A stretch of 64,000 bases of DNA from the NCBI RefSeq assembly GCF_024199925.1, contig NZ_JANADR010000001.1, positions 9,489,501 to 9,553,500 on the forward strand. Reading direction: 5' to 3'. A program made the translations under genes and the position numbers. This document shows positions 9,777-61,078 of this stretch, one piece after another (positions within the stretch are counted from its first letter, which is position 1; every line of letters starts with the position of its first letter). The notes beneath the pieces are model-generated. The model was not told where the DNA came from. It worked only from the letters and a program-made list of their open reading frames with translations, and searched no databases. This DNA is from Bradyrhizobium sp. CCGUVB1N3. Its GTDB lineage: Bacteria > Pseudomonadota > Alphaproteobacteria > Rhizobiales > Xanthobacteraceae.

Positions 9777-10063
9777 CCGATTTTGATACCGGCACGGTTG
9801 GCACATTGCCTGGGTCAGGGGCTCGAGGCATCAACGTCGCCTGTTGGCCCTCAGTGACATGATCGTGCTGTAGTATCGATTGCGATTAAGATCTTAAGTT
9901 GCGTGCGCGATGTTGCTCGCGGCCTCACCCGCGACATATCCCGCAGGCACCAGGGCGAGCGCGCTTGCGCGCCACGCCGGTTCGTTGCATTCGCGCGAGC
10001 CGCTCCTGCTGTTGGGACGGACAGGACGGCCGCAGCAGCAGAGAGCACGCTTGGGTAAAGAGG

Positions 10064-10360
10064 TTAGGCCCGCGTGCCGGTGAAGGGGAAGCTGCCCATC
10101 GGGCCGATGCCCATCTCACCGCTCATGCTGTCGCCGGAGACCTTGCCGATGAATTCGAGCGTCAGCGGCATCGGATTGGTGATCGAGACTTTCCAGTTGA
10201 CGGCATCGCCGCTGACCGCACCGTCGAAGATCTCGGCGGTGTTGCCTTCCGCGCCCTGCGTGCCCGTGAGCGTGCCGTCCGAGCTCGTCAGGCTCAGCGT
10301 CGCCTGGCGCTCACCCATCGGCGTCGTCATGGTCAGATTCCAGTTGCCGTCCACAGCCAT
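10064..10360 (-). CDS. Small beta-rich conserved hypothetical protein (98 aa)
   Basis: Starts MAVDGNWNLTMTTPMGERQA with GGAGACGGGA just upstream. The frame stays open further upstream, but ribosome site and compositional change favour 10360. The protein alternates short beta strands and Gly/Asp turns (LSLTSSDGTLTGTQG, KVSITNPMPLTLEFIGKVSG, SMSGEMGIGPMGSFPFTGTRA), suggesting a small beta barrel or sandwich. No signal peptide. It is the last gene of the minus-strand group below the TetR-controlled promoters, 105 bases after the YciB-like gene, so it may be co-transcribed. Function unknown. Confidence 0.75.
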   Translation of the reverse strand: MAVDGNWNLTMTTPMGERQATLSLTSSDGTLTGTQGAEGNTAEIFDGAVSGDAVNWKVSITNPMPLTLEFIGKVSGDSMSGEMGIGPMGSFPFTGTRA

Positions 10361-10465
10361 TCCCGTCTCCCTAAACTGTCGTGGTGAGCCCGCGTCGCGC
10401 GGTCCGTCCAGAGTTGAGCGTATAGCCCAACTCAATGCCGCTGCCTAACGCTCTCTTCGCCGCAG

Positions 10466-11020
10466 TCAGGCGCGGGCGGCGGCGCGCAGGCGGCCGGTGA
10501 TGATGATGCGGAAGATCACGTATTGGATGGCGAACGCCGCGATCTTGGCGCCGACGGCGACGACCGACACGTAGAACGCCCACAATTTGAGATCGCCGGT
10601 CCAGGCGACCGCGATGGTGCCGGCGCCGAGCACGAACATCAGCACCGCCCAGGCGTAGCCTGCGGCTGTGACATATTCCGGAATGACGTCGGTCACCCGC
10701 GCCGGCATATAGCGCAGCATCCAGCCGGGCTTGAGCATGATCGCGCCGATCGCGAAATGTGCGATCGAGGGCTTTGCCAGGACGAAGCGCGGATCATGGG
10801 TGAGAATGGTGGCGGTCCCCAGCACGATGACCAGCGCGAGCGAGGCGTAGGTCATGTAGCCGAGCGAGTTGCCCTTGACGCGGGCATAGATCACCTGCGC
10901 AATTGCCCCTGTAACCGCCAACGACGTCGCCAGGATGATGTTGTCGGTTGCGAGATAGATGATCAGGAAGACGATGGTCGAGAGGAAATCGGAGGCGAGG
11001 CGGGCGAATACGTCCTTCAT
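10466..11020 (-). CDS. YciB/septation protein A (IspZ) family membrane protein
   Basis: A 184-residue integral membrane protein with about five to six hydrophobic segments. The N-terminal LIIYLATDNIILATSLAVTGAIAQVIYARVKG and the following LVLGT..LTHDPRFV.KPSIAHFAIGAIML resemble YciB/septation protein A (helix, then FHDDRFIKWKPT). In the mid-region, VTAAGYAWAVLMFVLGAGTIAVAW fits the family's LNLAWALFFIALG motif. YciB-type proteins act in the inner membrane in cell envelope synthesis and division. This is a shorter, divergent relative, probably not the housekeeping copy. It follows the 11036-11605 gene by 15 bases, so the two form an operon with an operator-flanked promoter at 11626-11701. Confidence 0.7.
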   Translation of the reverse strand: MKDVFARLASDFLSTIVFLIIYLATDNIILATSLAVTGAIAQVIYARVKGNSLGYMTYASLALVIVLGTATILTHDPRFVLAKPSIAHFAIGAIMLKPGWMLRYMPARVTDVIPEYVTAAGYAWAVLMFVLGAGTIAVAWTGDLKLWAFYVSVVAVGAKIAAFAIQYVIFRIIITGRLRAAARA

Positions 11021-11035
11021 CGTCGGTCCTGTCGG

Positions 11036-11605
11036 TTAGGAGTTGGGCAGTGCGACGGGCGCACCGTACTTGATCCTGCGGTACTCGGGGTACCACTTCG
11101 TGAAATACATCGCGCTGTTGCGGGCGGCAAAGGCCACTGCGAGGCCCGACCAGATCGGCAGGCCCGGCACGTAGAGCAGCACGACGTTGGAGGCCATCAT
11201 CAACAGCGCGGCCGCGGTCCAGGCGGCGGTGATCGTGTAGTTGGCGCGCAGGAAGCCCGGCATCGCGGCGGTCTCGGCGGGGACCTCTTCGAGGGCATAT
11301 TGCAGCGTGAACGGGTGGCGAGCCAGCATCGAGCCGAGCGAGATCACGAAGATGCCGGCATCGACCGAAACCTTCACCGCGAGCGCGCTCAGCAGCGGAT
11401 TGAGCAGCGCGAGATAGATACCGATGCCGGCGAACAGGATCGCCGATCCGGCGGCGAGGATCTTCACCGAGCGGCCACGCACCACATCGATCGCGATGGT
11501 GGCAAGGCAGATTGCAGAGGCCGTGAGCACGCTGACCTTTGCCGATGCCAGGAACATCAGGAAGCCAAAGGCGCCATAGGGGGCAAGGATCAGGAAGATG
11601 GTCAT
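11036..11605 (-). CDS. Multi-pass membrane protein of unknown function
   Basis: A 189-residue protein with hydrophobic segments at about 3-20, 25-42, 50-75, 80-95, 122-140 and 143-160. No signal peptide is separate from the first membrane helix. The C-terminus FTKWYPEYRRIKYGAPVALPNS is polar and probably cytosolic. It resembles the next gene (YciB-like) in general layout, including a final segment preceded by WSGLAVAFAARNSAMYF. The two may be distant relatives, but I could not align them with confidence. It is the first gene after the operator-flanked promoter at 11626-11701. Confidence 0.75.
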   Translation of the reverse strand: MTIFLILAPYGAFGFLMFLASAKVSVLTASAICLATIAIDVVRGRSVKILAAGSAILFAGIGIYLALLNPLLSALAVKVSVDAGIFVISLGSMLARHPFTLQYALEEVPAETAAMPGFLRANYTITAAWTAAALLMMASNVVLLYVPGLPIWSGLAVAFAARNSAMYFTKWYPEYRRIKYGAPVALPNS

Positions 11606-11625
11606 GAGCCGCCTCGGTCAAGTCA

Positions 11626-11701
11626 ATCTTTACAATGTAAAGATCAATAGTTCAGGCCAAAGCAAGGGTCAAGTGAAATCTTTACAGTGTCAAAATGATG
11701 T
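11626..11701 (-). promoter_or_regulatory. Promoter flanked by two TetR-type operators (site pair 1)
   Basis: Operator 1a at 11626-11644 is a perfect palindrome, ATCTTTACA-A-TGTAAAGAT. Operator 1b at 11678-11696 is ATCTTTACA-G-TGTCAAAAT. On the minus strand a -35 TTGACC (11667-11672), a 17-base spacer and a -10 TATTGA (11644-11649) lie between and against the operators. This promoter faces the gene at 11036-11605. Segment 11667-11701 matches 13782-13816 at 32 of 35 bases. Operator 1b overlaps the 3' end of the MAPEG gene. Confidence 0.75.
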
Positions 11702-12167
11702 GAATGACTTGTAAAAAGTGAATTGCAGCAATGGCTTGCACCGCAGCTTCGTCGGCGACGTCGCGCCAGGGTAGCTGCGACAGGATCGTCAAGGCACACG
11801 TGATCAACAGGCTGATGGTGATGACAATGCCGCCGACGCGGCCGATCTGAAACCGGAGCGAGTTCGGCGCGGCGGACAGGCCGAAGGGATGGATCAGCCG
11901 CGACAGCAAAAGTGCGCCCATCAGGAGGTGAACGCGCAGTGCTGAGGCGCCGGACATTTCGATCATGGCCACCATCAGCGTGATGATCGGCACATATTCC
12001 ATGAAGTTGCCGTGCGCGCGGATCGCGTTGCGCAAGCTCGTGTTGCCGCCGTCGCTGAAGGCGGCCTTGTTGCTCCGCCGCAGCCGGATCACTTGCAGCG
12101 CGAGGACGGCGTAGATCAGGGCGAGGATCGCGAGATAGAACGCGGTGATGGAGGGCATGTGCATGTG
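11682..12167 (-). CDS. MAPEG family membrane protein
   Basis: A 161-residue, four-helix membrane protein of the MAPEG family (membrane-associated proteins in eicosanoid and glutathione metabolism). The signature lies in residues 20-110: RLRRSNKAAFSDGG, LRNAIRAHGNFMEYVPI, then LLLSRLIHPFGLS. The RAHGNFMEYVPI motif contains the Arg/His/Asn/Glu residues used for glutathione binding in known members. Bacterial MAPEG proteins often act as glutathione transferases or peroxidases in the membrane. The start is either M at 12167 or M two codons on (MHMPS). A repeat element (12206-12312) lies between this gene and the carotenoid oxygenase gene, so read-through from the upstream promoter is possible but not certain. 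Confidence 0.83.
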   Translation of the reverse strand, partial: HMHMPSITAFYLAILALIYAVLALQVIRLRRSNKAAFSDGGNTSLRNAIRAHGNFMEYVPIITLMVAMIEMSGASALRVHLLMGALLLSRLIHPFGLSAAPNSLRFQIGRVGGIVITISLLITCALTILSQLPWRDVADEAAVQAIAAIHFLQVIHIILTL

Positions 12168-12205
12168 AGGCTTCCTCGTGAGGCACGGCATGCTTTTTCA
12201 ACGGT

Positions 12206-12312
12206 GTCATTCCGGGGCGCGCCACTTGGCGCGAGCCCGGAATCCATCGTGCCGCATCAGGCGCGGCGAAAATGGATTCCGGGCTCGTCGCTTCGCTCCG
12301 CCCGGAAATGAC
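12206..12312. repeat. Dispersed inverted-repeat element, family A, copy 2
   Basis: Begins GTCATTCCGGG (12206-12216) and ends CCCGGAAATGAC (12301-12312), with one extra A in the right end. Internal hairpins are CGCGCCACTTGGCGCG and GGAATCCAT...ATGGATTCC. It sits in the space between the carotenoid oxygenase and MAPEG genes. Confidence 0.85.
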
Positions 12313-12323
12313 GGAAGTGGGAC

Positions 12324-13724
12324 CTACGCCGCTCCGACCCAATTGCCGTGAAACCCGTCGGGCACGCGGTGGCCGAGTTGTACGAGCGCGACGGGGCCTG
12401 CCTCGACATCGGTGGCGTTGAACACGGCGAGATCGCTGCGGTTCTCGCGGGCGCGCCAGACCACCGCGAGCAGCCAGCCCTCGCCTTCCGCGGCATCCTT
12501 GGCACGCTCGACGAATACCGGCTCGGAGATGCTGTCGCCGGCCGGCAGCAGGTAATGGCCGAGGCGTTTTCCCGCACCATCGACATGCACGATGCCGGAC
12601 AGCGCGGTGAACATCGGCAGTCGTGGGTTGGCGCAGGCGTACCAGCCGTGGCTCGTCTTCAATCCTGCGCGACGATCATCGACGCGCGGGAATTCGCCGG
12701 TGAGATCGTCGAGATAGGTCTGCTGGAAGCGGTCGGTATTCCCGGTGAGATCGAACGTCCAGCGGCAATGCCGCGCGAACGATTTCTCGGGATTGGTCGG
12801 CCTGCCGTCGGGATGCGGAAACAGCGGCGCCTCCTCGAACTGCATGACGTCGGCGACGATGCGGTTGCCGTCCTCCCAGGCGTTCATCACGTGGAAGACG
12901 TAGCAGGCTTCGGCGCGGAACCAGACGATGTCCTCTGGCCTGCCGTTGCGCTTCATCACGCCGACAAAGGCACCTTTCTCAGGCTCCCAGGCGTAGGGCG
13001 GCCGGCCCTTCATCGCACGCTCCATGCTGCCGGTGATGGGCAGGATCGGAAACAGCACGTGGTTCTCGGTAACGATGAAGTCATGCACCATGCTGGCATA
13101 GGGCGCCTCGAAACGCGCAAAGCGCGTCGCCTTGCCGCTGGCGTCGATCGCGCCGTAGGAGAGGGTGGGCGTGAGCGGGCCGCTCGCATTGTATCCGAAG
13201 AACACCATCTCGCCGGTTGAGGGATCGATCTTCGGATGTGCGGTGAAGGGGCCGGCGACGCGGCCCTGGTAGTTGCAATAGCCGCGCGTTGTGAGCGTGC
13301 CGGGCTCGATCTCGGTCGGCAGATGACCCTCTTCGAGCGCGAGCAGCTTGCCGGCGTGGAAGATGACGTTGGTGTTGGCGACGCCGCCGTCGGTCAGGTG
13401 CGCAGGCGCATCTGGCAATTTGCTGCCGAAGCCCTTGCCGAAGAATGCGCGGCCGGCATCATGCTCGGCCTGCCATTTCGGGGTGCGGACCCAGCGGTTG
13501 CGGTAGCTCGCGCGACCATTCTCCAGGTGGAAAGCGTGCAGCATGCCGTCGCCGACGAACCAGTGCGCGCCGGGTACGTCGAACTGTGGATTGGGACCGT
13601 TGCGATAGAGCGTCCCGTTCAATTCGCGCGGCAACTCGCCGACGACCTTCAGGAACGGCGCGTCGGCCTCGAACGGGATGGGCGCGCGATTGGGCGGCAC
13701 CTGGCTGAACACATCCTGCTGCAT
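12324..13724 (-). CDS. Carotenoid oxygenase (RPE65/CCD family)
   Basis: A 466-residue non-heme iron dioxygenase of the carotenoid-cleavage/lignostilbene family, which splits a C=C bond to give two carbonyls. Family hallmarks are the N-terminal LPRELNGTLYRNGPNPQF, GDGMLHAFHLENG, TAHPKIDPSTGEMVFFGY (first His ligand), MVHDFIVTENHVLF (second), FHVMNAWEDGN (third) and the C-terminal VPDGFHGNW (fourth). All four iron histidines are therefore present. The ATG at 13724 is preferred over the in-frame start at 13787 because GGGAG lies just upstream and the promoter lies in between. It is transcribed from an operator-flanked promoter divergent from the tetR gene. The substrate (carotenoid, stilbene or apocarotenoid) is unknown. 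Confidence 0.9.
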   Translation of the reverse strand: MQQDVFSQVPPNRAPIPFEADAPFLKVVGELPRELNGTLYRNGPNPQFDVPGAHWFVGDGMLHAFHLENGRASYRNRWVRTPKWQAEHDAGRAFFGKGFGSKLPDAPAHLTDGGVANTNVIFHAGKLLALEEGHLPTEIEPGTLTTRGYCNYQGRVAGPFTAHPKIDPSTGEMVFFGYNASGPLTPTLSYGAIDASGKATRFARFEAPYASMVHDFIVTENHVLFPILPITGSMERAMKGRPPYAWEPEKGAFVGVMKRNGRPEDIVWFRAEACYVFHVMNAWEDGNRIVADVMQFEEAPLFPHPDGRPTNPEKSFARHCRWTFDLTGNTDRFQQTYLDDLTGEFPRVDDRRAGLKTSHGWYACANPRLPMFTALSGIVHVDGAGKRLGHYLLPAGDSISEPVFVERAKDAAEGEGWLLAVVWRARENRSDLAVFNATDVEAGPVALVQLGHRVPDGFHGNWVGAA

Positions 13725-13739
13725 GGCGGATTCTCCCTG

Positions 13740-13824
13740 ATCTTTACATCGTAAAGATAAGGTAGTGGCGAGCCGGGCGCCGGTCAAGCGAAATCTTTAC
13801 ACTGTCAAAATGACGTCATATAAC
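13740..13824. promoter_or_regulatory. Divergent promoters with two TetR-type operators (site pair 2)
   Basis: Operator 2a at 13740-13758 is ATCTTTACA-T-CGTAAAGAT. Operator 2b at 13793-13811 is ATCTTTACA-C-TGTCAAAAT. On the minus strand -35 TTGACC (13782-13787), a 17-base spacer and -10 TACCTT (13759-13764) lie between the operators and face the carotenoid oxygenase gene. On the plus strand -35 TTTACA (13796-13801, inside operator 2b), a 17-base spacer and -10 TATAAC (13819-13824) face the tetR gene. The arrangement copies that at 11626-11701. Confidence 0.75.
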
Positions 13825-13831
13825 GCCAGTC

Positions 13832-14563
13832 ATGGCCAAGACCGAAACCATCCGCCGCGCTCGCCCCAGAAAATCGCCGTCATCCGCCGCGAAGGAGCGG
13901 CCGCGCCGCGCCGCGAGTGCGAAGGCCGAGACGCCTTATCACCACGGTGCGCTGCGCGAGGCGCTACTCAAGGCGGCCGAGCGCGTGCTGGAGCGCGACG
14001 GCCTCGGCGGCCTCACGCTGCGTGCGGTGGCGCGCGAGGCGGGGGTGTCGCATGCCGCGCCGACCCATCATTTCGGCGACCTCACCGGTCTCGTCAGCGA
14101 GCTCGCCGCGGTCGGCTTCCGCCAGTTCAATGCGGCGATGGCCTCGGCCTGCGATTCCGCGACGACGTCACTCGAGCGGGCGCTGGCGCGACCCAAGGCC
14201 TATGTCGCCTATGCGCAGGCCCATCCCGGCATGTACGGCATCATGTTCCGCACCGAGCGGCTCGACTATTCCAGGCCGTCGCTGCACGAAGCCGCGGAGG
14301 CCTCCTTTGCGGGGCTTGCCAACGCCATCGGCGCGATGCGCCAGGAGCAGATCAGCCGCGATACAATGACGCTCGACCAGGCGGCAGCGATCGCGCGCGC
14401 CTGGTCGATGGTGCACGGCTTCACCATGCTGCTGCTCGACGGCCGGCTCGAGGATATTTTGGGGCGGTTGCCGAATGGCACCACGGCCGAGCAGCTTCTG
14501 GAGGCGATCCTGAAGTCGACGGTGCCGAAGTGGCCAGTTGAGAGCGGCGCAGCGAAAGGCTAG
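13832..14563 (+). CDS. TetR/AcrR family transcriptional regulator
   Basis: A 243-residue repressor. Residues 1-32 are a basic, Arg/Ala-rich extension. Residues 35-85 are the TetR helix-turn-helix domain: YHHGALREALLKAAERVLERDG, then GLTLRAVAREAGVSHAAPTHHFGD. Residues 100-235 form the ligand-binding and dimer domain, of the WHG/TetR_C_33 type by recall (YVAYAQAHPGMYGIMFRTERLDYSRPS). No ribosome-binding site precedes the ATG. The predicted -10 ends 7 bases before it, so the mRNA is probably leaderless. The -35 is inside an operator, indicating autorepression. The same operator occurs at two target promoters, so this gene probably controls the carotenoid oxygenase gene and the 10466-11605 operon. 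Confidence 0.88.
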   Translation: MAKTETIRRARPRKSPSSAAKERPRRAASAKAETPYHHGALREALLKAAERVLERDGLGGLTLRAVAREAGVSHAAPTHHFGDLTGLVSELAAVGFRQFNAAMASACDSATTSLERALARPKAYVAYAQAHPGMYGIMFRTERLDYSRPSLHEAAEASFAGLANAIGAMRQEQISRDTMTLDQAAAIARAWSMVHGFTMLLLDGRLEDILGRLPNGTTAEQLLEAILKSTVPKWPVESGAAKG

Positions 14564-14574
14564 CGCGTCGCGAG

Positions 14575-14661
14575 TTAGGTACTGCCGAAGGATTGGGCGC
14601 CGGCCCGATCAAGCGCGGCGCTCGCGATGAGCAAAATCACGGCGAATGTGACACGCTTCAT
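14575..14661 (-). CDS. Very small exported peptide candidate (28 aa)
   Basis: Reading frame MKRVTFAVILLIASAALDRA then GAQSFGST. It has a basic start, a hydrophobic core and a polar end, as in a signal peptide or a single-pass micropeptide. GAGGG lies about 9 bases upstream. It converges on the tetR gene, 11 bases after that gene's stop. Length is too short to exclude chance. Confidence 0.4.
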   Translation of the reverse strand: MKRVTFAVILLIASAALDRAGAQSFGST

Positions 14662-14810
14662 GATGAGGCCCTCATGCCGCGGAACTCCCCTCATTCAGAC
14701 GTGTTCATTGTGGGGAAGGTTCAAACGGGGCCTCGAGACACCTGACATGGCCGCGGAATCGTTCTAGAAGAGCGCCTTCGCCTCGTCCCGCGTTGTCACT
14801 TATCTCGATC

Positions 14811-15371
14811 ATGTCAGCCATATCGTCGAACAAACCCTATCGCGTCGGCCGCTCCAAGACCGGACTTGGCCTCTTCGCCACCAAACCGATCAAGAAGGGT
14901 ACCCGGATCATCCGCTATTTCGGACCGATCCTGGACTGTCGGATCCCGGAACAGGACGACATCGAGAACAAATACCTGTTCGAGCTCAACGGCCGCTGGA
15001 CCATCGACGGCTCGGTGCGCAAGAACGTCGCGCGATACATCAACCATTCCTGCCGGCCCAACGCGGAATCCGACGTGCGGCCGCGCGAGCGCAAGGTCTT
15101 CATCCGCGCCATCAAGAACATCGAGGCGGGCGATGAGATCAACTACGACTACGGCACCGACTATTTCAAAGCCTATCTCAAGCCGATCGGCTGCAAGTGC
15201 GCCTCCTGCGAGACGAAGCGGAAGAAGCTGCGCGCCGAGGCGCGGGCCGAGCGGGCCAAGGTGAAGGCGCGCCCCGCGCGCAAGGCCAAGAAGACGGGCG
15301 CGAAGGCTGGCGCCAAGAAGAAGCTCAACGGCCACGCCTTCGGCAAAGCGAACGGCCGCGCGCGGGCTTAG
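14811..15371 (+). CDS. SET domain protein (putative protein lysine methyltransferase)
   Basis: A 186-residue protein. Residues 10-120 form a SET domain: GRSKTGLGLFATKPIKKGT, then YLFELNGRWTIDGS, the catalytic-core NHSCRPNAE (knot motif) and GDEINYDYG. A post-SET zinc-binding cysteine cluster follows, CKCASC. Residues 140-186 are a Lys/Arg/Ala-rich tail like histone H1, suggesting binding to nucleic acid. SET proteins transfer methyl groups from SAM to lysine, and bacterial targets are rarely known. The ATG at 14811 is preferred over a TTG at 14793. The stop overlaps the stop region of the convergent methyltransferase gene by 4 bases. Confidence 0.88.
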   Translation: MSAISSNKPYRVGRSKTGLGLFATKPIKKGTRIIRYFGPILDCRIPEQDDIENKYLFELNGRWTIDGSVRKNVARYINHSCRPNAESDVRPRERKVFIRAIKNIEAGDEINYDYGTDYFKAYLKPIGCKCASCETKRKKLRAEARAERAKVKARPARKAKKTGAKAGAKKKLNGHAFGKANGRARA

Positions 15372-15991
15372 GTCGAGTTCGCCTTCACCAGCGCAATGGT
15401 GCTCCAGCTGACGCCGGCGGGACGGTTTGCCGCCTGGATCGATTCCGAATGCACGTTGAGCATCAGCTGCAGGCCATACGGCCGTACCAGCTCGGTCGTT
15501 TCATCCGGCGAAACCTCGAACATGCGCCGGCCGGGTGGCACCGGGCCGTGACGCAGAGTCATGATGACCATGCCGTCGTCTGCGACCCGCGAGGCGAGAT
15601 TCGGCATGGCGCGGCGACGCTGCTCGATGTCGAGATGCATCCAGACCGCGGTGAGCATCACCAAGTCGAAGGTCGCGTTGCGGCGGCGCAGGAGCGCAAG
15701 ATCGGGCAGGCTGTCGTTCAGCCATTCGATGGCGGGCGAGGGATGTCGCGCAATGGCGCCCAGCCGCAAGGCATCGGTCGGCTCGACCGCGACAACGTGA
15801 TGGCCCATGTCGGCAAACCACGCCGCATCACGTCCCGTGCCGGCGCCGATGTCGAGCACGCGACGCGGCGAAGAGGGCATGAGGTGCAGCACCGCGCGAT
15901 GGGCGTCGGCGGACCGAATGTTCTCATAGCGCGTGAAAAGTTCGCCTGCTTCTTCTGCATAGCCTTCGGTGCCGCTGACCGGTTGTGACAT
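15368..15991 (-). CDS. Class I SAM-dependent methyltransferase
   Basis: A 207-residue Rossmann-fold methyltransferase. Motif I is VLDIGAGTGRDAAWFADMG (residues 44-62), the acidic end of strand 2 is VVAVEPTDALR, motif IV is FDLVMLTAVWMHL, and a later strand is DGMVIMTLRHGPVPPGRRMF. The start at 15991 (MSQPVSGTEGY) has AAGGGATGG upstream. The substrate is unknown. The 3' end overlaps the SET gene's stop by 4 bases. A family A repeat follows at 16058-16138. Confidence 0.87.
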   Translation of the reverse strand: MSQPVSGTEGYAEEAGELFTRYENIRSADAHRAVLHLMPSSPRRVLDIGAGTGRDAAWFADMGHHVVAVEPTDALRLGAIARHPSPAIEWLNDSLPDLALLRRRNATFDLVMLTAVWMHLDIEQRRRAMPNLASRVADDGMVIMTLRHGPVPPGRRMFEVSPDETTELVRPYGLQLMLNVHSESIQAANRPAGVSWSTIALVKANST

Positions 15992-60718: not shown

Positions 60719-61078
60719 CTACCCCACTTCCTCGATCTTCACCTTGTCAGGATAGAAGGCGAGATGGCCGGAGATCTCCGTCATGGCGGGGAACGGCGTC
60801 TCGTAAGTCCAGATCGCATTGTCCAGCGTCTTGCCGTCGGCCTTGACGCTGAAATAGCTCGCGTCCCCCTTGTAGGGACAATGGGTGACGCGGTCGGTCC
60901 GCTCAAGCAAGGCCATATTGGCATCTTCCCGCGGCACATATTGGACGGCCGGATACCGGGCCTCCTTCAGCGTCAGCGCCTTCATGGTGTCCGCGATCAC
61001 GACGTCGCCCGCTGTCACGCGGACACGCCTGGGGTTGTGGGTGATGGTGATGGGGTGGTCGGGGCCCGGAAGCTTCAT
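60719..61078 (-). CDS. DUF427 protein
   Basis: A 119-residue single DUF427 domain: MKLPGPDHPITITHNPRRVR, then VVIADTMKALTLKEARYPAVQYVPREDAN, THCPYKGDASYFSVKADGKT and AIWTYETPFPAMTEISGHLAFYPDKVKIE. The last block (W.Y..P......I..H.AFY...V) is the family signature. No signal peptide. Role unknown. Start at 61078 has AAAGG upstream. Confidence 0.9.
   Translation of the reverse strand: MKLPGPDHPITITHNPRRVRVTAGDVVIADTMKALTLKEARYPAVQYVPREDANMALLERTDRVTHCPYKGDASYFSVKADGKTLDNAIWTYETPFPAMTEISGHLAFYPDKVKIEEVG

Follow-up and report, generated by a model that had tools for sequence, protein, structure and literature searches.

The genes and control elements of the locus

The window, which is the whole analysed stretch of 64,000 nucleotides of Bradyrhizobium DNA, carries a TetR-family regulator gene that stands divergent from a carotenoid-oxygenase-family gene (CCO), and further on lie a MAPEG-family gene and the genes of two membrane proteins. 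Four ATCTTTACA-type palindromes are set among these genes and form two pairs, with spacings of 52 nt (pair 1) and 53 nt (pair 2). The features are as follows.

10466..11020 (-), gene of an IspZ-like membrane protein (intracellular septation protein A family), PF04279 E 1e-14
11036..11605 (-), Orf189, predicted membrane protein, weakly VC0807/IspZ-like
11626..11644, site A of pair 1, a perfect palindrome lying immediately downstream of the -10 for Orf189
11644..11672 (-), predicted Orf189-IspZ promoter, TTGACC-17-TATTGA, read from sequence
11678..11696, site B of pair 1, conserved, although a divergent promoter is not seen here
11682..12191 (-), MAPEG-family gene, PF01124, between pair 1 and CCO
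12324..13724 (-), CCO, carotenoid-oxygenase-family gene, 466 aa, PF03055 E 9e-134
13740..13758, site A of pair 2, a near-perfect palindrome lying immediately downstream of the -10 for CCO
13759..13787 (-), predicted CCO promoter, TTGACC-17-TACCTT, within pair 2
13793..13811, site B of pair 2, imperfect palindrome upstream of the CCO -35, containing the tetR -35
13796..13824 (+), predicted tetR promoter, TTTACA-17-TATAAC, its -35 inside the distal site B of pair 2
13832..14563 (+), gene of a TetR-family regulator (243 aa), the candidate protein for binding at all four sites

The regulator carries a TetR-family helix-turn-helix (PF00440, TetR_N, 36.7 bits against a cut-off of 24) together with PF13305 (TetR_C_33, 51.9 bits against 26.8), and its nearest solved sequence is 3on2, listed as a probable transcriptional regulator. 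Orf189 has no Pfam match, and its NCBIfam hit (NF041646, E 6e-5) lies under the cut-off; its homologues at E<=1e-5 number 3130, and the best 120 of the 3130 bear names that point to Bradyrhizobium. The IspZ-like gene begins 15 bases beyond Orf189. Its product belongs to PF04279 but falls under the NCBIfam IspZ cut-offs and outside the IspZ equivalog (TIGR00997, 46.2 bits against 165.2). The MAPEG-family gene ends inside site B of pair 1, its TAA stop being part of the palindrome (11682-11696); a tblastn match in only 29 of 111 loci excludes it as a stable member of the regulon.

Two further features lie nearby. A perfect 16-base inverted repeat with its arms 24 bases apart (12232-12287) is found between CCO and the MAPEG-family gene, and a SET-domain protein gene (14793-15371) stands downstream of tetR, where matches to it are also seen in most of the loci listed. 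An RNA element is not a suitable explanation of the region, as 9800-15600 holds no Rfam match at gathering score.

The first-pass annotation had described the four palindromes in two pairs, 52 and 53 bases apart, at these same coordinates, and had placed a minus-strand promoter exactly between the two sites of each pair. The TTGACC-17-TA promoter is present in both pairs (TTGACC 11672-11667 with TATTGA 11649-11644; TTGACC 13787-13782 with TACCTT 13764-13759), but its -10 touches site A, overlapping it by one base in pair 1 and abutting it in pair 2. Twenty bases separate pair 2 from the start of the TetR gene (13832), which had been placed beside the pair, and the tetR transcript probably starts at about the ATG, making it leaderless or nearly so. 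The tetR promoter, the MAPEG stop codon within site B of pair 1 and a third pair elsewhere in the genome (see below) are additions to that annotation. Pair 2 overlaps both divergent promoters and is conserved across species, which is the arrangement of a local autoregulated TetR module.

Chance or AT-rich noise does not account for the sites. At a tolerance of 3 mismatches, 10 strand-hits at 5 places are found in the window; 100 dinucleotide shuffles gave 0.04 on average and never as many as 10. The reversed control of the pair pattern is present in none of the 265 genus genomes. The fifth place, at 60735, has 3 mismatches and is chance-like.

Conservation and spacing of the paired sites

The sites stand out from their surroundings across the genus. 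In pair 1 (93 distinct sequences) the mean majority base is 91% for site A and 98% for site B over outer flanks of 54-57%, and in pair 2 (103 distinct sequences) it is 98% for A and 93% for B. The complement of the -35, GTCAA, likewise keeps a single offset before site B in 88 of the 93 sequences of pair 1 and in all 103 of pair 2; the longer GTCAAG precedes site B in 89 of 93 and 103 of 103. The tetR promoter (TTTACA with TATA after 17 nt, or ATAA one base on) is present in at least 100 of 103 sequences. Behind site B of pair 1, a consistent divergent -10 was not found in the 93 sequences. The conservation of this site therefore suggests that it takes part in the control of the Orf189 promoter, over and above the autoregulation of tetR.

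Such a role need not be repressive. The TetR protein might activate or assist RNA polymerase from site B and repress from site A, in which case occupancy would switch the promoter rather than plainly shut it. The fixed distance from B to the -35 with a distance from A to B that varies by a few bases would suit an activator, as would the stronger conservation of B than of A in pair 1, where B lacks a divergent -10, and the poor -10 hexamers. The position of site A over the start region argues instead for repression, and B is centred near -50, where activators are not usually centred; moreover, most local TetR proteins are repressors. Activation from B is accordingly held to be improbable, and plain repression is the reading retained.

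The spacing of the pairs is restricted. Over 144 loci, with 40-60 nt allowed, spacings of 51-56 and of 42 occur, and none of 43-50. The 42-nt spacing is found at pair 2 of three loci (L142, L144, L146), both sites being kept, and in one more genome (G531) among the matches listed genus-wide. Being about one helical turn shorter with both sites retained, it suits binding on one face of the DNA. Spacings of 51-56 are equally demanded by promoter geometry, and therefore the argument for phasing rests mainly on the 42-nt cases.

Presence and co-loss across the genus

The first-pass annotation had proposed a search of related genomes for the operator pairs. In the genus Bradyrhizobium, 256 of 265 genomes contain the paired pattern and none contains the reversed control. 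Genomes with the pattern have one or two pairs, except this genome (G000) and G509, which have three. Among 117 sampled genus genomes, 114 encode a TetR orthologue (E<=2e-78) and 111 show the pattern, that is 111 of the 114 with the orthologue and none of the three without it (G040, G047 and the 67% complete G100). The three TetR-positive misses are two loci in which a pair carries a mismatch (L117, L163) and one contig end.

Of the genus TetR loci, 113 were fetched (L084-L196), and in 93 of them CCO, Orf189 and IspZ are all present while the sites, at up to 3 mismatches, number exactly four. Further counts refer to 111 loci, the window included and three cut at a contig end excluded. A scan for spacings of 48-58 finds pair 2 at 108 of the 111. 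Orf189, scored as present when the match exceeds 120 residues, occurs in 98 loci, and the scan detects pair 1 beside it in 94. Upon locus-by-locus inspection of the scan misses, 97 of the 98 prove to have a pair immediately upstream of Orf189: L148 and L156 have a single pair common to Orf189 and tetR, with CCO absent between them, and L163 has a one-mismatch pair just upstream of Orf189. In L151, Orf189 directly follows CCO and has no pair of its own.

The loss of the gene is accompanied by the loss of its sites. Orf189 is missing from 13 loci, two of which (L158, L165) were dropped as contig breaks, their partner contigs (L199, L200) carrying Orf189 and a pair; a separate pair 1 is found in 0 of the remaining 11. 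Two loci without Orf189 (L102, L138) retain a single B-like site, and in L117 an Orf189 fragment is found together with one pair beside tetR. Sites remain beside tetR where CCO or Orf189 has been lost. The earlier proposal that one repressor controls CCO, tetR itself and the 10466-11605 operon is well supported by this conservation and co-loss, which argue for shared control by one regulator. As the layout is kept across the genus, the predicted circuit is real though fairly ordinary as local control circuits go, and its history is unusually readable.

A third pair and distant relatives

In the 10.4-Mb genome, the forward strand has 17 matches with up to 3 mismatches and the reverse strand 16, where the reversed control has 4 on each, and all six sites with up to 2 mismatches fall within three pairs. 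The third pair is unlinked to the locus (C1:2613305/2613358, spacing 53; L053:5306-5377) and reads on the minus strand B, TTGACG, 17 nt, TAAGGT, A. It lies just upstream of an M20-family amidohydrolase gene, itself behind a tandem paralogue, and the same is seen in G509 (L257), where the pair stands between the same tandem amidohydrolases. These are the only two of the 265 genus genomes with the amidohydrolase pair; within the 117-genome subset, none of the 116 genomes other than this one has more than two pairs. The amidohydrolase itself (E<=1e-150) is found in 114 of the 117, with close tandem copies in at least 12 besides this genome. The predicted regulon extends, then, to an unlinked third promoter beyond this locus.

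Two other candidate occurrences were set aside. The tally of three in G604 is one pair counted on both strands plus one more pair, and three stretches in genome_contigs (Salinivirgaceae, Prevotella and Chryseobacterium records) that match an exact ATATTTAC-type form of site B together with its -35 are taken as chance.

Comparable sites occur in a few distant relatives of the regulator. A paralogous locus in G031 (L202: TetR 48%, CCO-family 32%, Orf189-like 40%) and an order-level relative (L233, G323) have palindromes of a similar but shifted kind, spaced by 52-54, the second of them preceded by GTCAA, and a second TetR copy in G035 (L201, 62%) has no recognisable sites. The architecture may belong to a TetR subfamily, as judged from few loci and a permissive scan. 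In L202, L233, L234 and L235 a His-to-Asn change in the recognition helix of TetR occurs together with a C-to-A change at operator position 3; a link between the two is possible, but is kept as no more than a lead, because the sites came from the permissive scan.

At L202:1097-4707, DUF6790, CCO-family and Orf189-like genes stand divergent from the related TetR, with shifted palindromes. At L203:7183-9891 a related TetR (40%) stands beside pirin-like and tautomerase-like genes, with repeated AATCTAGACA motifs and GTCAA before the last. In L238 and L241 a 107-aa membrane-like ORF precedes Orf189 behind the distal pair, about 1.7-2.1 kb upstream of tetR.

An unlinked pair raises the question of whether the neighbouring TetR binds the sites at all, or is a bystander to a regulator encoded elsewhere. 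The third pair in G000 and G509 would fit a bystander, and one family locus outside the genus (L246) has TetR (65%) and CCO but no recognisable site. The sites nevertheless stay beside tetR where CCO or Orf189 is gone, they follow the orthologue from genome to genome (111/114 against 0/3), and a few distant TetR relatives have similar sites in the same place. A distant regulator is hence considered very improbable, and the neighbouring TetR remains the candidate binder.

Origin of the second pair

The first-pass annotation had read one control region as a copy of the other and had reported a 35-base block (11667-11701 against 13782-13816) identical at 32 positions. A recount gives the same 32/35. 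Copying is favoured by the gene order of relatives, but the block identity gives it no support. Across 103 two-pair loci the two blocks agree at 28.9 of 35 positions within a genome and at 28.4 across genomes. The 32 of the window is near the top (at least 32 is reached by 6 of 103 loci), and when the window's pair 2 is set against pair 1 of each other locus, at least 32 positions agree in 33 of 102 cases. As identity within genomes is about that across genomes, the 32/35 reflects shared constraint, and a recent duplication or gene conversion behind it is unsupported.

These values would also suit a separate origin of the two pairs, or their repeated capture, driven by selection for one repressor and one promoter geometry, with no ancestral region being copied. 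Nothing obvious is common to the window's two spacers, and 2 of 265 genomes have a third pair, which lies beside an unrelated gene. Set against this are the order of elements, the fixed offset from the -35 to B and the asymmetries of site B, all of which the pairs share, and the seven CCO-less family loci that have one such pair where Orf189 meets tetR. An independent origin is possible but rather doubtful.

The insertion of CCO with a duplication of the control region, the history preferred here, draws on the wider family. Loci outside the genus come from 23 of 28 genomes with a TetR match (G137, G226, G158, G189 and G199 were left out). CCO and Orf189 occur with two pairs in eight of these (L237-L242, L247, L248). 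L244 also has two pairs, on a contig that ends before Orf189 would start, and in L249 CCO and Orf189 are accompanied by one distal site alone. CCO occurs without Orf189 in L251, L252 and L253, with one pair or one strong site. In nine loci (L230, L231, L232, L243, L245, L250, L254, L255, L256) Orf189 adjoins tetR and CCO is absent; the seven of them whose sites are listed carry one A-B pair each, with GTCAAG before B, and L256 and L230 have only one strong site each.

A TetR tree of 59 rows, rooted with L233 and L234, places eight of the nine CCO-less family loci on early branches, in several steps (SH-aLRT 87-92, unstarred). L245 falls inside a CCO group, like a later loss, and L251, which has CCO and no Orf189, is near the base on a long branch. 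The layout labels require 17 changes over the 59 rows. A single clade of the CCO rows and the presumed later losses (L243 included), picked after a first tree, is not rejected (p-AU 0.294). In that first tree L181 was labelled CCO-less on account of a partial CCO match, and it has both pairs. The gene order of the relatives and the TetR tree therefore favour, without proving, that CCO was inserted together with a duplicated control region; L117, L148, L156, L163 and L245 look like later losses.

Proposed mechanism and significance

It is quite likely that the TetR protein encoded at 13832-14563 is a ligand-responsive autorepressor of three operator pairs and that the second pair came with the insertion of CCO and a duplication. 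TetR dimers would occupy A and B on one face of the DNA, with about five helical turns between the two palindromes and possibly with cooperativity. Site A would cover the start region just downstream of the -10 and site B would lie at a fixed distance upstream of the -35, and occupancy of both together would shut the promoter that the pair frames. Pair 2 would thereby control CCO and the divergent tetR, pair 1 the Orf189-IspZ operon, and the third pair the M20 amidohydrolase. The ancestor would have had a single divergent control region between Orf189-IspZ and tetR, into which CCO was later inserted with a duplicated control region, so that either half retained a pair of its own. In several lineages, recombination or deletion would later have eliminated either CCO or Orf189 together with a pair. 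What the sequences themselves show is the sites with their spacing and conservation, the co-loss and the gene orders; the identity of the binder, repression, cooperativity, the ligand and the direction of the duplication are inferences.

A more tentative proposal, which seems unlikely on balance, is that A, promoter and B form a cassette that moves as a unit, bringing a promoter and its repression to a new gene at once. The whole element could be copied, since B keeps its place relative to the -35 and A occupies the opposite end of the element, on the same face. Its steps would be the insertion of CCO, the loss of CCO with collapse to one pair, the spacing shorter by one turn, and the capture of the amidohydrolase.

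With autorepression of three pairs by the local TetR, a regulon that seems to be uncharacterised so far would run through the genus Bradyrhizobium. It would comprise a candidate regulator, three promoters as targets and an operator defined at 19 bp. One signal would link a carotenoid-oxygenase-like enzyme with two IspZ-like membrane proteins. The natural variants (a single pair, a lost CCO, the 42-nt spacing, a relocated pair) provide a ready series on the function of paired operators, and also bear on how a regulon gains and loses a promoter.

The carotenoid oxygenase and comparison with known systems

CCO belongs to the RPE65 superfamily (PF03055, 447.5 bits). Its His 163, 214, 278 and 459 align with His of 7qr6 and are presumably the Fe ligands, and its nearest PDB sequences are dioxygenases such as 5j53 (NOV1) and 6ojr (LsdA). 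Lignostilbene dioxygenases conserve Phe-59, Tyr-101 and Lys-134, according to PMC8191317. Counted on an alignment to 7qr6, which has F, Y and K at those numbers, CCO has Phe at the first column, Phe at the second and Glu at the third, and two of the three signature residues hence differ. Its relatives agree: of 121 aligned rows, in which the window protein is contained twice, 120 have Phe in place of Tyr-101 and 116 have Glu in place of Lys-134. Thus, CCO shares the fold family, the four candidate Fe-ligand His and the Phe-59 column with NOV1, LsdA and LSD4, and it departs from them by Tyr-101 to Phe and Lys-134 to Glu. The NCBIfam score for lignostilbene dioxygenase is 416.5 against a cut-off of 800. 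With Phe and Glu at the Tyr and Lys columns, a phenolic stilbene is an unlikely substrate, and lignostilbene catabolism is disfavoured as the role of CCO; an apocarotenoid or another alkene would be a guess.

Among titles and the starts of abstracts in the open-licence PMC literature, no paper on this regulator or operator was found. TetR modules that regulate themselves through a pair of operators are an established type, which the predicted operator-TetR system joins, and its interest comes mainly from the natural variants. In Tn10, TetR and tetA share a divergent control region with two operators, tetO1 and tetO2. Likewise, the present locus has a predicted TetR-fold autorepressor divergent from its target, with two palindromes over both promoters. 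It differs from Tn10 in the wider spacing (52-54 nt in most loci), in unrelated targets with the efflux pump absent, and in second and third copies of the pair at other promoters. GalR/gal (PMC4693257) also has two operators that frame promoters and lie several helical turns apart; the present system, which gives no sign of looping, differs from it in the TetR fold and in a separation of about 5 turns.
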